Assembly: GCF_000769075.1 (NCBI RefSeq) | Contig: NZ_JRFC01000033.1 | Coordinates: 1 to 64,000, forward strand | Direction of reading: 5' to 3' | Source: Porphyromonas sp. COT-290 OH3588 | GTDB taxonomy: Bacteria; Bacteroidota; Bacteroidia; Bacteroidales; Porphyromonadaceae | Length of the DNA stretch: 64,000 nucleotides | In this document: positions 4,400 to 58,966 of the stretch, piece after piece | Layout: each line of letters begins with the position of its first letter | How positions within the stretch are numbered: position 1 is the first letter of the stretch | The notes under the pieces: generated by a model | Databases searched by the model: none | Seen by the model: only the letters and a program-made list of their open reading frames with translations | What the model was told of the DNA's origin: nothing | Made by a program: the position numbers and the translations under genes

Positions 4400-4699
4400 C
4401 AGTTGTACGATTAGTATGTACCGTTCTCCAAAAAAAACTTATGCGATAATTGGCGCAAAGGTAATCATTTTATTTTGCCCCTTGATTTAGTCTAATTCTC
4501 AAACTATATACTTAAGGTATCTATTTTGCCCTCACCGTGAAGGGGAACCGTGGACAGGAGAGGGTAACAGCTACTGTCTATGGCTTCACTCTCGGCTTGG
4601 GCGGCTCGGCTACCTAGCTGCTTTCGCTGGACTAACGTGCTTGATGTGGGATTTATTGCTTCAGCCACTAGGGGCTTCATTTGTTTACACCTTTTAATA

Positions 4700-5090
4700 G
4701 AATAGAAGTATGTTTGGCTCAATGATTGGTTTTTGAGGACCAAAGGCCCAAATCGCGTATTTGCCCTCTAGCGGGCCCTACATTGCGTTGGACCTCTATT
4801 TGGGCACTTTACTCCAGACGTGTGAAAATAATCGCTTAAAATCAGATCTTTTTTAATGTGTTTATATTTAGTTATATAGGCTGGCTTGAGGGGCGGTTTC
4901 GCTTAATTTTAAGTGGAGGTTTTGGCATTTCTTCCCATTAACCTTGCGGGACTGGTGGACATGCCTCTAGGCATTAGTCCACTAATTGGCGCAGATTAGT
5001 CCTTCAATTTTTGAGCCTTGTACTAGATCTGGTTGTTTTCTTGTCGATAGAGAGTTTGGGCTTGTTTGCAAATCTTAACAGAAATGACGC
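4700..5090 (+). repeat. Intergenic MITE-like element, copy A
   Basis: This is the first of five related elements in the window. The leader block (about 4753-4805) carries GTATTTGCCCTCTAG and ends in ATTTGGGC. A spacer follows, then four 22-bp units at 4930-4951, 4952-4973, 4974-4995 and 4996-5017 (core CCAYTAAYY). The tail has TTAACAGAAATGACGCTC near 5075-5092. It is the most diverged and shortest copy. It lies between divergent tyrS and tRNA-Thr/tuf. Nothing recognisable lies between 4470 and 4700, and no protein gene is supported in this 920-bp gap. Confidence 0.8.
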
Positions 5091-5220
5091 TCATCGCATC
5101 TTTAAGGTACTAGGCTCTGCTGTTCGGCTTCTTTATACATATATTATGAGATACGGGGTGTTTGCAGAGGAAGTGCTCGGGTAGGTGTGTTGCCATCTTT
5201 GCTTTTTTCTTTGGTGGGGT

Positions 5221-19322: not shown

Positions 19323-19423
19323 GTAGAGGGGAAAAGCGCTTGCGAGAGGACTGATGCGATGGTTGTGAGAGGGGAAAGGGTGTTGGCAAATTTTAACAGA
19401 TGAGCGGGTGGCGTTTATACTTT

Positions 19424-19838
19424 TGAGTCGTTTCTGGATTGGCGTAGGGGAGATAACCTTTGGTCGGGCGAAAAGTGTAAGATCGCATATTTACCCCCTA
19501 GCAGGCTCTACACGGCGTCCGACCTCGTTTGGGCCAGTTACCCTTAGTTAAAGGAAAATATGCGCTTAAACACAGTGTTTCTAATTATTTGTTTTTGAGT
19601 GTTGTATGTTTTGTTTTGCTGTGGGTTTATGTGTGTGGGTCACATTTATCGAGAGTTCTTCCCATCAATCTCTTGGGATTAGTCCACCAATCCCAAGAGA
19701 AGTGTCCATCAATCGGAACAAGTCTTCCCATTAACTTTTCTCAGACTCTCTACTCTTCTTTAGAAACCTTATGCATTTCCTCGAAATTCTTTAGTAAGTC
19801 TTTAACACTCCTTGACTAAAAAGAATACAAATGATCGC
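19424..19838 (+). repeat. Intergenic MITE-like element, copy B
   Basis: The leader block at 19481-19534 reads ATATTTACCCCCTAGCAGG and ends CTCGTTTGGGC. The unit array is at 19657-19678, 19679-19700, 19701-19720 and 19721-19742; the third unit is 20 bp and the others 22 bp. The tail, with CTTTAACACTCCTTGACTAA, runs to about 19838. In this copy the first and second units face each other (CCCATCAATC.TTGGGATTAGTCCACCAATCCCAA), making a local palindrome. It is in the divergent gap between the HD hydrolase and rpmB. Confidence 0.85.
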
Positions 19839-20239
19839 CAAAATCAAATCAGTTTTGCGCAGAAGTACTTTGTGTCGAGGGTTCTTGCTTAGACATAGCA
19901 ATGGTATATGATAGCTGGCTCTTGGCTTGGAGTGCTTGTCGGTAGTGTGATGATTGGCGGGCTCTATGGGCTATCCGGCTTGGGCGTAAAGTGTGCTAGG
20001 TTTGTTTGGTTTGCCTCTGGGGTATGTTCTTCCTAGCATGTGGAGTAGAGCAATGTGTAGTGCCGAGGAGGCTCAAGTGGCTCACGATCGTCGAGTGTTA
20101 AGGTGTTGAAAATGAAATAAGGCTTGCATATTTTGCGGAAAAGTAGTTACTTTGCATGCTGATTGTGCGAGACTCAATGATGCTACGAGTGGCCGATCAA
20201 CTCATATCATATTGATTAATAATTAACAATAGAATAGAA

Positions 20240-27787: not shown

Positions 27788-28128
27788 CAGTTTACCTTAA
27801 TGTTATAATGTCTATTGCTTCTGATCTCTGGGTCAATCTCTCTGAAATTGACGCACAAAATTACGAATTATCCTTTACTCCCTCGGTAGATTTTGCCTCC
27901 CTTGGCGACGCATCTTGGATATTTGTCCACAGTGGTCGTGCCTTAACCTCCCTCGTCTGCCATAGGGCGAGGGCTTCTGCCTTGGCTAGGCTCTTACTGT
28001 TTCTGGCTTGGCGAGTACCCTACGAGCAGCAAACCAAGGGTTGTGTATCGGATCTCTCTGCCTAGCTCCGCCGTAGAGGTGCCAATGCAGCCTATGTCGA
28101 GTTCGGATTGCTTATGCCAGCCTAATGC

Positions 28129-28546
28129 ACTCATTTGTCTGCTTTTTTGTTAAGTTTTGCAAATGAATTATGCATGAATTTGGTGGAATGGCTAGACGGT
28201 TTCTAAAGGTTGGTGGAAGTTTGGAGGAAATTGAAGGAAAGATTTTGGCCGATTGATGGGCGCATCTCGGGGGATTAGTCCACCAATCCCATAAGATTGA
28301 TGGGGAGAAATGGCCCAAAATATGGTACGAGCATACGCAATATGCGAATAGGCTTCTTTATTTGATTGTTTGTGAGTGATTTGTGATTCTCTCGTTTTTA
28401 GGGAGATTTTCACTTGCCTAGTATTCGATCCCAAAATAGCCTCGGATGCAATATCGGGCCTCCTAGGGGCCAAATACGAGGTTTGCTGTTTGGTTGCGCA
28501 TGCGCTTGATAAGTGCTCAATGGACATACAAAAGCGTAAACGAATG
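28129..28546 (-). repeat. Intergenic MITE-like element, copy C
   Basis: Reverse orientation. The leader block is at about 28431-28484 (sense CGTATTTGGCCCCTAGGAGG). The 22-bp units in sense order are 28287-28308, 28265-28286, 28243-28264 and 28221-28242; a fifth degenerate unit may follow at 28201-28220. The tail, with AACTTAACAAAAAAGC, ends near 28129. Its outer ends, ACTCATTTGTCTGC (left) and the complement of GCGTAAACGAATG (right), are imperfect inverted repeats. It lies between divergent leuS and valS. The remainder of the gap, 27788-28128, shows no gene. Confidence 0.83.
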
Positions 28547-28633
28547 TATAAAGTGCAGCATCTAGAGGAGTCGAAAATCTGGGGTGTAGATTTTAGTTAG
28601 CCTCTGCCCTGATGTAAAATAAGCCATTATCCT

Positions 28634-45237: not shown

Positions 45238-46221
45238 CTATGAGTCGCCTCGTCCGCCGAAGTACTTCATAAACTGGATACGCTCAAAGACATTAACATC
45301 TTCGGGGGTCGAACCGTTTAGTCTAGCCCTAAATTCGTCTACACTTCTATAGCCACGCTTGTCCATCCACATACCTAGAGCGACGAGGGCGTTGGAGATA
45401 GCCGATGGCCCCTCTTTGTAGAGGGCGGTACACATTTGTACTGAGCTAGCCCCAGCCAGCAGACTTTTGGTGACCTCCTGCCATGTGTATATCCCAGTGG
45501 ATGAGCTGATCTCCACTTGTGGGACGAGCGAGCTCACTAGAGCCGTGAAGCGTAGAGTGTCGGTGAAGTCGCCTACATGGGTAAAGACGTCGCCACTACG
45601 GAGCTCCTCGGTGTTGAGGTCTATGTCGGACTGATAGCTGCGGTTGAATAGCGTTACGGCATTGGCTCCCGAGGCACGCAACTTGTCCACTAGTGCTGGT
45701 AGGGCTGTGTGGTAGCGAGATAGCTTAACGATGATCGGGATCCTCAGCTTGGAGCGTAGACTCTTGACGATGTCGCAGTAGTTCTGCTCCGAGGCTAGAG
45801 GGTCGAAGTATAGGTCTGTTTCTAGACGCATGATGTTTACCTCGAGAGCATCTGCTCCAGCCTCTTGAATACGTGTGGCGAAGTCTACCCAGCTATCGGC
45901 TCTAAGGCAGTTGATGCTGGCTATGACGGGGATATTGAGTTCACGTTTGTAGTGGCTAATCTGCTCTAGGTATCGACCTACCTCCTCGGCGCGCACATAG
46001 TGAGCGATGTATTCGGAGGCTTCGGTGTAGTCATTGTGCTGCTCCATTGATTGGGCTTCGGCCTCGATCTGCTCCTCGAATAGAGATTTAAGAATCACAG
46101 CGCCAGCACCTGCGTTGGCGAATGCTTTCACTTTGTCGAGGTTGCGAGTCAGCCCCGAGCTCCCAATGATGATAGGGCTCTGTAGATGTAGCCCTACAAA
46201 TGATGTACTGATGTCTGCCAT
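45238..46221 (-). CDS. Dihydroorotate dehydrogenase-like protein
   Basis: A 327-residue FMN-binding TIM barrel related to class 1 DHODs. It begins with the family-like SPIIIGSSGLTRN, has AGAGAVILKSLFEEQ, PVIASINCL and LEVNIMRLETD, and near the end AGASSVQMCTALYKEG, which binds the FMN phosphate. The position of the class 1 catalytic Cys (usually NxSCPN) is occupied by NIMRLET, so it is unlikely to be a normal PyrD. It lies upstream of the OmpA gene on the same strand. Confidence 0.8.
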   Translation of the reverse strand: MADISTSFVGLHLQSPIIIGSSGLTRNLDKVKAFANAGAGAVILKSLFEEQIEAEAQSMEQHNDYTEASEYIAHYVRAEEVGRYLEQISHYKRELNIPVIASINCLRADSWVDFATRIQEAGADALEVNIMRLETDLYFDPLASEQNYCDIVKSLRSKLRIPIIVKLSRYHTALPALVDKLRASGANAVTLFNRSYQSDIDLNTEELRSGDVFTHVGDFTDTLRFTALVSSLVPQVEISSSTGIYTWQEVTKSLLAGASSVQMCTALYKEGPSAISNALVALGMWMDKRGYRSVDEFRARLNGSTPEDVNVFERIQFMKYFGGRGDS

Positions 46222-46644
46222 GACAGTGTATATATGTTATTAAGTTTCTGGTTCGATGCGTTCGTATGCCTCAAGGGCTATACGCTCGCCTACGAGGCCA
46301 TAACTTGCTTACTTGTCGGTTTATCGGAACAAAGTTAGTATTAAAATTTGTATATCCATGGCTTTTTTATTAGGAGTTACACGGGGGAGCTCTCTTTTGG
46401 TAGCGAAGGCTACAGTGCCTCGTTGGGTGGTAGATTCTATCTCTCCGTATGAGGCTCGTAGCACCTTGTTCTAGATGGGGGAGCCTCTCGTTGTATTTGT
46501 GTGTTGTCTGTGCTCTCAACCATAGCGCTATGTGGGCAGGCGATACCTCTTCTGTCATAGCTTGCCTATCATCTTCTCATCTTTTTCGTTATTTCTATTG
46601 GGGTAGCGCTGTATGTAGCTCCTCATCGGTCCAAGGCTGTGAGC

Positions 46645-47063
46645 GTTCATTCTTCTACTTTTTAGTTAAAGAGTGTTAAGGTGTTGCTGAGGAATTTGGG
46701 CTAATGAGTGGGTATTTCCTAAAGGTTGTTGCGTCGAGCTTAGAGGATTGATGGGAAAACTTGTTGGGATTGGTGGGCTAATCCTCTCAGATGTGTCCAC
46801 CAATCTTGCGAGGTTGATGGGAAGAAAACCTCAAAAATGCTTCGTTTTCGGAGAATCTTTGCCGATTTACTGATGTATATATTTTGAAATCAGTATTTTC
46901 TGTTTGGGGCGTTTTAGGCGATTGTTTTTATTCGGCTAGGGGTAAGTACCCAAACGAGGGCAAACCTTATCTAGAGCCTTCTAGGGGGCAAATACGCCGT
47001 CCTCCCTTCTCTCGTTCCAAGGCCTGCAAATCATTTGATCGGTATACATAAACGTTAATGAAT
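46645..47063 (-). repeat. Intergenic MITE-like element, copy D
   Basis: Reverse orientation. The leader block is at 46948-47002 (sense CGTATTTGCCCCCTAGAAGG, ending CTCGTTTGGG). The 22-bp units in sense order are 46804-46825, 46782-46803, 46760-46781 and 46738-46759. The tail (sense CCTTAACACTCTTTAACTAA) and terminal CATTCATT/CGTTCATT inverted ends bound it. It lies between the divergent DHOD-like gene and the LolC-type gene. The rest of the gap (46222-46640 and 47064-47315) shows no supported gene. Confidence 0.85.
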
Positions 47064-47315
47064 GTATAACTCTAGGAGTGTCGCCCCGTCCCGTGTTGGT
47101 ATGCCTATTGTCTAGATGCCGTGTAGCGCATAATTGCCTCTAGAGTAGGCTCTATATCTAGTGATGTGAGGGGTGTTTTTGGGAAATATGTTACTCGGCT
47201 ACTCTGCTCGGGTGTATACAGAGCATTGGCCGATCGGGCTTTCGGTTTTTTTGTCTTAAATTCGTGTGCCTCGTTCTGTGCAGGTAGAGGCCAATTAAGT
47301 GATTTAGATTGTAAG

Positions 47316-48524
47316 ATGGGTTTGACAAGTTTTTTTGCACTGCGCTATCTCTTTAGCCCCTCTCGTATGGGGGCGGTCAATTGGGTTTCGGGGATCTCTG
47401 CCGTAGCCATTGCGGTAGTGTCTATGGCTCTCGTTGTAGCACTCTCCGTATATAATGGTTATGTCAAGCTCATACTCCAAACCACTGGGGCTGCTGCCCC
47501 CGAGTTGCTCATCACACCACAGCAAGGCGCTACTCTCGATATGCGAGAGCCAACCCTCCTCACGGCTCTAGAGAGTGACCTAGTGGCTAGCTATAGCCCT
47601 ATGTTGCGGGCAAAAGGCGTTATACGACACTTAGCTACGGAGCAAATGGTCGATGTGGTAGGGGTAGCTCCAGAGTACTGGCAGGTAGTTGGTGGGGATA
47701 GCCTGCTACTCGAGGGGCGACTTCCCAAGCAAGGCTCCTCAACCCCCGAAATACTTGTAGGTATGGCCTTAGCCTCCGAGGGGATTAGCCCTATGGCTCA
47801 GCAGGACGCTCGGCTCTACTTTCCCCGTAGGCAGGGGCTCATCAATCCGCTTGCTCCCGGCACAGCCTTCCGCTCGACAGAGCTCGTGGTCACGGGTATT
47901 ATGCGCCCTGTGGACGAAGAGTTCGATCGTCAGGGCTACGTCGATATCTCGGTCATGCACGACCTGCTGGCCTATCAGGAGCACATAGCTACGGCTGTGG
48001 CGCTTCGGCTGGCTCGTGGCGTCCCACCAACCGAGGGGAAGCAGCGCCTAGCGGAACGTCTAGTAGGTAAGTACCATTTGCTTGATAGGGCTGAGCAGCA
48101 CCCTGAGCTTACTTTTCTGATTCGTATGGAGAAGCTGATGGTTTTTTTGATCATGACGTTCATTCTTCTTTTGGCGGCCTTTAACTTAGCTAGTGGTTTG
48201 GCGATGCTTATCCTAGAGAAGCGTGCCGATCTACAGACGCTGCGTGCTCTCGGTATGACGTCCCGTATGGAGGGGCGTATTTTTGCGCTCGCTGGCGTCC
48301 TGATTTCGCTGCTTGGATCGTTTGTGGGTGTCACACTTGGGCTAATCTTGAGCTGGCTACAGGAGCGATTTGAGCTCATCGAGGCAGGGCAGGGTTTACT
48401 TACGATGCCATTCCCTATCGACATTCAGGCTTCCGATATTTTACTTATCCTCTTGTGTACTACGCTTATCTCTTGTGTTATATCTATGGTGCCTAGTTTC
48501 TTCTTTAAGAAAAAGCGTTCTTGA
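47316..48524 (+). CDS. LolC/FtsX-family ABC transporter permease
   Basis: A 402-residue MacB/LolC-type permease: an N-terminal membrane helix (about 25-48), a large periplasmic domain (about 50-270), then three membrane helices (about 285-310, 330-360, 375-395). The start region FFALRYLFSPSRMGAVNWVSGIS is typical of lipoprotein-releasing permeases. I use the ATG at 47316, since upstream in-frame sequence from 47166 is not conserved-looking. No ATPase partner is nearby. It probably moves lipoproteins toward the outer membrane. Confidence 0.85.
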   Translation: MGLTSFFALRYLFSPSRMGAVNWVSGISAVAIAVVSMALVVALSVYNGYVKLILQTTGAAAPELLITPQQGATLDMREPTLLTALESDLVASYSPMLRAKGVIRHLATEQMVDVVGVAPEYWQVVGGDSLLLEGRLPKQGSSTPEILVGMALASEGISPMAQQDARLYFPRRQGLINPLAPGTAFRSTELVVTGIMRPVDEEFDRQGYVDISVMHDLLAYQEHIATAVALRLARGVPPTEGKQRLAERLVGKYHLLDRAEQHPELTFLIRMEKLMVFLIMTFILLLAAFNLASGLAMLILEKRADLQTLRALGMTSRMEGRIFALAGVLISLLGSFVGVTLGLILSWLQERFELIEAGQGLLTMPFPIDIQASDILLILLCTTLISCVISMVPSFFFKKKRS

Positions 48525-58370: not shown

Positions 58371-58480
58371 TCGCCTTGAGAGTACTGTGTATTGCTCCCT
58401 ATAAGGCTCTTGCCCTGCTATCTTGAGCAGAAGTCTATGGGCGTAATTTGGTTTGACATAAATTTACAACTCTATATTAA

Positions 58481-58885
58481 GTTCGTATTGCTTGGTTAGG
58501 GCTCATAGCCCGCTAGGGGGCAAAATGGAAAATCGCATATTTGCCCCCTAGCAGGCTCTGTATGGCGTCCGAGTCTATTGGCGCATCTGAACTCTAGTGA
58601 GGTGGAAATAGTGGCCTAGAAAGACTTGTTTTTAATGTATTGATAACCATGTGTTTAGATGGATTTTATGTGCCGTTTATTGTGCTCGTGGCTCATTCCT
58701 CAGTATTTCTCCCCATCAATCTCCTCGGATCAGTGGACCTATCTCAAACAATTAGCCCACCAATCTGGAGAGATCCTCCCTTCAATTTGTCCATAATGCT
58801 CTGCCATGCTTTATGAATAGCCTTCTGGTTCTCAAAATTTCTAGGTAATCCCTTTACGATCCTTAACGAAAAAGTAGACGAACGA
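58481..58885 (+). repeat. Intergenic MITE-like element, copy E
   Basis: The leader block at 58531-58582 carries CATATTTGCCCCCTAGCAGG. The 22-bp units are 58708-58729, 58730-58751, 58752-58773 and 58774-58795. The tail with CCTTAACGAAAAAGTAGACG ends near 58885. The outer ends GTTCGTATTGCTT (58481) and the complement of AAAAAGTAGACGAAC (58869-58883) are imperfect inverted repeats. This copy alone has an inverted duplication of the leader (58507-58524 against 58540-58557). It lies between candidate oriC and the sigma-54 regulator. Confidence 0.85.
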
Positions 58886-58966
58886 GCACCCGATACACTC
58901 AGGGCTGTGAGTAAAATGGATATCGCTATACCCCAGACGCAATAGCGAGTAGAGTGAGTAAATGAT

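Follow-up and report, generated by a model that had tools for sequence, protein, structure and literature searches.

The intergenic DNA at positions 46,640 to 47,073 of the window (the whole 64,000-nucleotide stretch of Porphyromonas sp. COT-290 OH3588 that was analysed) is one copy of a high-copy, strictly spaced element of ~430 bp that lies between outward-facing promoters, has no detectable RNA structure, exists in species-wide types, is associated with breaks in gene order, and has counterparts of the same design and unrelated sequence in other genomes of the genus. On our best reading, these elements are part of a class of iteron-like arrays that occupies promoter gaps throughout the genus, differs in sequence from species to species, and has a putative biochemical function.

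The focal copy and all of its parts are on the minus strand. The copy, whose full length was delimited by profile match, occupies a divergent gap (46,222-47,165) between a dihydroorotate-dehydrogenase-like gene (45,238-46,221, minus strand) and a LolC/E-type ABC permease gene (47,166-48,524, plus strand); gene names in the window are NCBIfam names. Its most conserved block is the leader core GACGGCGTATTTGCCCCCTAGAAGGCTCTAG...CTCGTTTGGGTACTTACCCCTAG (46,936-47,001), which was recognised in the conservation profile and contains an exact 14-mer match at 46,981-46,994. The left end (47,040-47,073) is of the B variant (TTATACATTCATTAACG...) and was placed where conservation sets in sharply, 75-76 bp ahead of that motif. 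The units were identified by sequence and array alignment: unit 0, TTCTTCCCATCAACCT, of type 1 (46,811-46,826); unit 1, GATTGGTGGACACATC, which is inverted (46,790-46,805); unit 2, GATTAGCCCACCAATC (46,768-46,783); and unit 3, GTTTTCCCATCAATCC (46,745-46,760). The tail, CTTAACACTCTTTAACTAAAAAGTAGAAGAATGAA (46,645-46,680), was located by its spacing of 301 ± 1 from the leader. The profile also detected a second copy at 4,686-5,098 (plus strand), in the divergent gap between tyrS (minus) and the EF-Tu gene tuf (plus); a third at 19,414-19,843 (plus strand), in a tandem gap between two minus-strand genes, with altered unit orientation (palindromic GGGATTAGTCCACCAATCCC); a fourth at 28,126-28,552 (minus strand), in the divergent gap between leuS (minus) and valS (plus); and a fifth at 58,460-58,892 (plus strand), in the divergent gap between dnaA (minus) and a gene for a sigma-54-interacting regulator (plus). 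All five copies listed in a preliminary description of this DNA are therefore real, and the profile coordinates lie within a few tens of bases of those given there.

Throughout the family the left end (ATTTATATTTTAGnTCA..TTTCAGAATGTTGATGGGAA, or TTTACACTTT at the start of a second variant) is followed by the leader core GACCTCGTATTTGCCCCCTAGnAGGCTCTAGATTGCGTnCGACCTCGTTTGGGCACTTAGCCCC, then by an A+T-rich spacer and the four 22-bp units, and after another spacer by the tail TTTACAnTCCTTAACnAAAAAGTAG. Conservation begins sharply at the left boundary (ATTTATATTTTAG.. or TTTACACTTT..), 75-76 bp ahead of the leader motif, and in most copies the leader-to-array distance is 153 ± 1 bp and the leader-to-tail distance 301 ± 1 bp. 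The 43 near-complete copies measure 427-526 bp, with a mean of 434 bp. Spacing fixed to 1-2 bp at ~51% sequence identity implies that the element is under constraint. The main exception to the fixed length, seen in about three cases, is a duplicated unit array, which adds ~100 bp; copies with such a duplication are at C6:707465-707990, C32:100845-101015 and C32:111393-111578 of the window's genome. The second of the four units is inverted, and unit inversions were also seen in the copy at 19,414 and in copy L112. The order of leader, ~22-bp unit array and tail proposed in the preliminary description was thus found, at near-constant spacing, and its four units of 22 bp are present, but one of them is inverted relative to the rest. 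In having tandem dyad units at a 22-bp spacing, which corresponds to two helical turns, the element shows a feature of the iteron type.

The element has no coding capacity, and this, together with its placement in gene gaps and its at least 147 copies, bears out the earlier view of a non-coding, intergenic, multi-copy sequence. An Rfam search of the element returned no match, no covarying helix was present in the element alignment, and the folding energy was not unusual (mean z between 0.1 and -1.1 relative to shuffled sequences); with all three results negative, a structured RNA or riboswitch was rejected. An ~11-bp AA/TT periodicity (A-tract phasing) was suggestive in the consensus of the window's genome; it was not robust per copy, per segment, in the sister genome or when the units were omitted, so that wrapping or bending of the DNA is without independent support. 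A ~190-bp repeat with the terminal hairpin GGGGCTGCGCCAAAATTCAATTTTGACACAGCCCC (L061:380-580, C6:336953-337143 and C6:136662-136865 of the window's genome, and dozens of other places) sometimes adjoins the 430-bp elements. It was considered as a part of the element and rejected, as it is a separate family found mostly kilobases away.

The family is larger than was first claimed. In the 2.29-Mb genome to which the window belongs (G000), a 140-position model of the leader matched at least 147 places (best E value 9e-32), and a model of the unit array (110 positions) likewise gave at least 147 matches; the leader 14-mer occurred 78 times at no more than one mismatch, and the reversed-pattern control did not occur. 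The sister genome G023 (the MAG S17M_Sa_46, which is fragmented) has at least 75 copies. When 26 genomes of the genus were scanned with the array model, the family was found in G000 and G023 only, and G000 was its sole carrier among 295 sampled genomes of the order. The leader pattern, searched against 84,980 GTDB species (a set that may omit the window's own genome), had its sole match in the MAG 'Porphyromonadaceae bacterium S17M_Sa_46'. No copies were detected in the plasmids, phages and viral contigs searched, and a phage or plasmid origin of the elements was rejected for this reason. Mean pairwise identity is ~51-52% among the copies of G000 and 69% among those of G023. The copies and their surroundings were read in 1.66 Mb of G000 and 0.74 Mb of G023, with genes defined by simple ORF calls.

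Placement of the element depends strongly on the orientation of the neighbouring genes. In the 1.66 Mb of G000, an element was present in more than half of the divergent gaps (61 of 110), in 50 of the 486 tandem gaps and in a single one of the 106 convergent gaps (divergent versus convergent, Fisher's test, 6e-22), and the corresponding numbers in the 0.74 Mb of G023 were 24 of 47, 6 of 213 and 2 of 41. Since ~45% of divergent gaps have no element, divergent promoters as such can do without one. The median length of divergent gaps was ~940 bp with an element and ~310 bp without. The sequence TAnnTTTG is the -7 element of Bacteroidetes promoters. An outward-directed box of this kind was found in 135 of the 172 flanks that face a gene start, compared with an inward box in 21 of the 172; the outward boxes lie at a median of ~130-150 bp from the element, and in flanks that face a gene end a -7 box is rare. 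Within 114 elements the complete -33/-7 pattern occurred once. The outward boxes in the flanks and the near-absence of the full pattern inside argue that the element sits between two outward promoters and is itself almost promoter-free. A promoter-carrying element was accordingly rejected, the -33/-7 patterns being depleted inside and located in the flanks.

The genes beside the elements are core genes of diverse kinds (tyrS, tuf, leuS, valS, dnaA, argS, rplM, mutS2, ftsK, uvrC and htpG). Specificity for a gene category was rejected, as no single pathway stands out among them, and no enrichment is claimed because the annotated controls were ten genes. A tmRNA gene (Rfam RF00023; L067:1155-1560) lies just downstream of the tail of one element. 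The longest element-free stretch of contig C6 of G000 (C6:466000-533800) contains a Bacteroides-type MobC gene and for that reason is probably an integrated conjugative element.

Elsewhere in the genus, promoter gaps contain arrays of 22-23-bp dyad units that are unrelated in sequence to those of the window's family (L324:3514-3623 in genome G021; L266:4395-4489 and L317:699-786 in genome G016). In G021, the shared dnaA/sigma-54 gap (~1 kb) lacks the element family and has 23-bp units (GAGTTATGGTAAGTCG...), the first of which is inverted; this array was found at at least 33 places in G021 (33-40 scored), and among the genomes of the genus only G021 has it. The 22-bp array upstream of valS in G016 (AAAAGTTCCCGAACTTTTTT) occurs at at least 33 scored places in that genome, at 90% identity or more, with weak matches in G015. 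Across the genus, 15 of 72 regions upstream of valS, tyrS and dnaA contained tandem arrays with a period of 21-24; such arrays were absent from all 77 coding and all 72 shuffled controls, and periods of 15-20 or 25-30 were not seen in any of the upstream regions. Sequence sharing among unrelated upstream regions (at least 45 bits) was 12% within a genome, a figure partly due to the window's own element family, versus 0.1% between genomes. Dyad symmetry exceeded that of shuffled sequences (z of at least 1.9) in 18 of the 19 genus arrays examined. None of these 19 arrays contained a -7 box, and outward -7 boxes were present within 300 bp of most of them, at least one promoter being expected from the choice of loci. 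Arrays are not uniform within every genome, as the units at the valS and tyrS loci of G009 differ from each other. In G009 the 22-bp array upstream of tyrS (L301:522-760) is followed by an ISPg3/MITE239-type end, TCGAACTGAC, and the tyrS locus of G025 (L300) has an exact TIR of BrickBuilt, a P. gingivalis MITE; these sequence marks suggest that the two genomes belong to the P. gingivalis/P. gulae lineage. A literature search found no published description of such a class of promoter-gap arrays. The occurrence of arrays of the same design and unrelated sequence in related species suggests a system for DNA binding or chromosome organisation that evolves fast and has not been described before in this form.

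The window's genome and its sister differ in the type of array they carry. Type 1 (CCCATCAATC, GATTGGTGGACA, CCACCAATC) was found in 113 of the 114 copies read in G000, and type 2 (TGCACTAATC, GATGTGTGTACACATC, CCTACAATC, CTCTnAGAG) in 43 of the 44 read in G023. The lone type 2 copy of G000 (C6:650713) and a type 2 copy of G023 (L125) have a left flank in common, and so do the lone type 1 copy of G023 (L102) and a type 1 copy of G000 (C23:65716). Because these exceptions are at loci common to both genomes, both array types were probably present in the ancestor. At loci with a shared left flank, the G000 orthologue had a mean percentile rank of 0.87 over the element's first 54 bp and was at background (~0.5) past the leader core; a matching pattern was seen in only two of six loci with a shared right flank. 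Locus-specific ends combined with species-wide interiors are the pattern that would be expected from inter-locus conversion, and independent amplification of different subfamilies may have contributed at some loci.

Gene order between G023 and G000 was broken at 14 of 17 informative element gaps, as against 30 of 174 other gaps without an element (p = 8e-8), G023 being a fragmented MAG. Divergent gaps without an element were broken in 3 of 12 cases (p = 0.006 versus the 14 of 17), and neighbours were kept across all 133 short gaps. At least one partner gene was found beside an element of G000 in each of the 14 broken gaps, and both partners in 9 of the 14. Flanking DNA gave a similar picture: among ten G023 elements with both flanks mapped, eight unite flanks of two different G000 elements. 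As for the window, no other genome of the genus showed the leuS/valS or the tyrS/tuf junction in the 1.5 kb that was examined, and the dnaA/sigma-54 junction is shared with G021. The orientation of the element relative to a shared flank is reversed at about one third of the flank matches, which is not explained by simple homologous crossover. G023 contigs C36, C69, C92, C85, C112, C94, C55, C130 and C106 start at most ~300 bp from an element, which is due either to breaks of the assembly at repeats or to elements that vary within the population.

That the element is a chromosomal iteron-like regulatory or organising module with species-specific sequence, homogenised and rearranging by recombination among its copies, is a proposal to which we give about even credence. 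Tandem dyads two helical turns apart are a classic design on which dimeric proteins load cooperatively, plasmid iterons being an example, and units at this distance lie on one helix face. The four ~22-bp dyad units, the strictly spaced leader core and the ends would together make up a composite DNA site of ~430 bp, on whose units a putative dimeric DNA-binding protein most likely loads cooperatively. Once loaded, the gap, which lies in negatively supercoiled DNA between divergent genes, could work as an upstream regulatory site common to both genes or as a topological boundary. Inter-locus conversion would homogenise the interiors of the elements, the ends remaining locus-specific, and crossovers between copies would shuffle gene order. 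Counting against this model are the divergent gaps that lack an element, the reversed orientation at about one third of the flank matches, the AA/TT periodicity that was not robust with the units omitted, and the differing units at two loci of G009. Both the binding protein and a role in regulation or as a boundary are inferred, and so is the causal part of recombination, which would most simply explain both the homogenisation and the rearrangement. A wider proposal, which we hold more tentatively, is that promoter-gap arrays across the genus keep their period, dyad symmetry and position, have their unit sequence replaced in each species, owe their uniformity within a genome to conversion, co-evolve with a binding protein, and are points of gene-order shuffling. 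Each species would have a unit sequence of its own because the array and the putative binding protein would change together.

The preliminary description had suggested a BrickBuilt-like MITE. As a rival explanation, this would be a non-autonomous transposon moved by a transposase in trans, with an insertion preference just upstream of promoters and with a subfamily amplified in each species. High copy number, the sharp left boundary and the intergenic location agree with such an origin, the more similar copies of G023 (69% versus 52% identity) could represent a more recent subfamily, and one syntenic site measures 796 bp in G000, where the element is present, and 159 bp in G023, where it is missing. 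However, ~620 bp differ around the 430-bp element at that site, which is not a clean insertion. BrickBuilt has IS5-type TIRs (GAGACCTTTGCA / TGCAAAGGTCTC), TSDs at some sites, and internal promoter activity (PMC4596501). In our copies, ends within two mismatches of GAGACCTTTGCA were found in 6 of 116, about the chance expectation (hand-computed). The element's own ends scored 6.9-7.0 and shuffled ends 7.3, so that the imperfect inverted repeats attributed to them are no better than the controls, and direct repeats at the ends were no longer than in mismatched pairs. Comparison of the gaps between species pointed to in-place conversion and rearrangement, not to clean insertions. Moreover, a longer, autonomous form was not seen in the 1.66 Mb of G000, plasmids, phages and viral contigs had no copies, and both the in-place replacement of arrays with locus-specific ends and the near-absence from convergent gaps argue against transposition. 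As TIRs, TSDs and BrickBuilt ends did not exceed the controls, a MITE was rejected as the identity of the element and membership of BrickBuilt is not supported; we regard this origin as unlikely.

A topological buffer that acts without a specific protein seems to us quite unlikely. On this hypothesis the tandem dyads absorb supercoils as cruciforms or attract gyrase or topoisomerase, and selection is for period and symmetry, not for sequence; placement exactly between divergent promoters and dyad-symmetric units in 19 arrays of unrelated sequence would follow from it, and recombination at palindromes would account for the synteny breaks. The copies of G000 and G023, however, also keep a non-palindromic leader, ends and spacings, the uniform unit sequence in each species suggests sequence-specific recognition, and single-strand folding is barely above that of shuffled sequences. 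The least probable of these explanations, in our judgement, is a neutral repeat family with no cell function, which inter-locus conversion would have spread and only long promoter gaps would tolerate. Concerted evolution of the copies fits this explanation, as does the absence of elements from the only long element-free stretch of C6, the site of the conjugation gene; yet the 1-2 bp precision of spacing at 51% identity implies constraint, and unrelated arrays of like period, symmetry and place in other species would be hard to explain.

If the elements are iteron-like modules as proposed, they would form a genome-wide set of regulatory or boundary sites that change their sequence completely from one species to the next as their design and place persist, and would represent bacterial concerted evolution of ~100-150 dispersed sites. 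They would offer a natural system for the study of co-change between a DNA-binding protein and its sites, and could explain, in a way that can be tested, why gene order in the group is so extensively shuffled. BrickBuilt and other 'minisatellites' would be recast from transposon debris into members of a functional class.

Among known systems, the iterons of plasmid origins are tandem ~22-bp units on one helix face that are typically bound by a dedicated protein. The element resembles them in its tandem ~22-bp units on one helix face, but it is found at ~150 chromosomal promoter gaps, with no replication gene attached and no plasmid match. BOX, Correia and REP/BIME sequences are shorter repeats with terminal inverted repeats or RAYT-type mobility. 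They too are high-copy, intergenic, modular repeats that are mosaic among copies, but they are not known to lie between outward promoters or to have genus-wide unrelated arrays of one period. Genome-wide sites that turn over between sister species and are linked to recombination also recall those of the PRDM9 type, although the element is bacterial and the likeness is an analogy only. A further close parallel is BrickBuilt, of which P. gingivalis has 19 copies of 84-991 bp with 1-22.8 units of a 23-nt direct repeat (PMC4596501). Both have a leader, a ~22/23-bp array and a tail, and both are always intergenic, multi-copy, species-restricted, and located near core genes such as leuS and argS. 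The element differs in its at least 147 copies, its fixed length of ~430 bp, its four units with one inverted, the lack of TIRs and TSDs, and the near-absence of promoter motifs inside. It does not contain a spacer-free 23-nt direct tandem repeat of variable copy number, and G025, which is likely P. gingivalis, gave no match to its array model. Of the BrickBuilt-like MITE first suggested, the layout thus stands and the MITE status is not supported, given the TIRs and TSDs at control level and the fixed length; the accompanying suggestion of a related but distinct family holds, the relation being one of layout. Layout, setting and the arrays found across the genus suggest that BrickBuilt may itself belong to a broader class of ~22/23-bp promoter-gap arrays.
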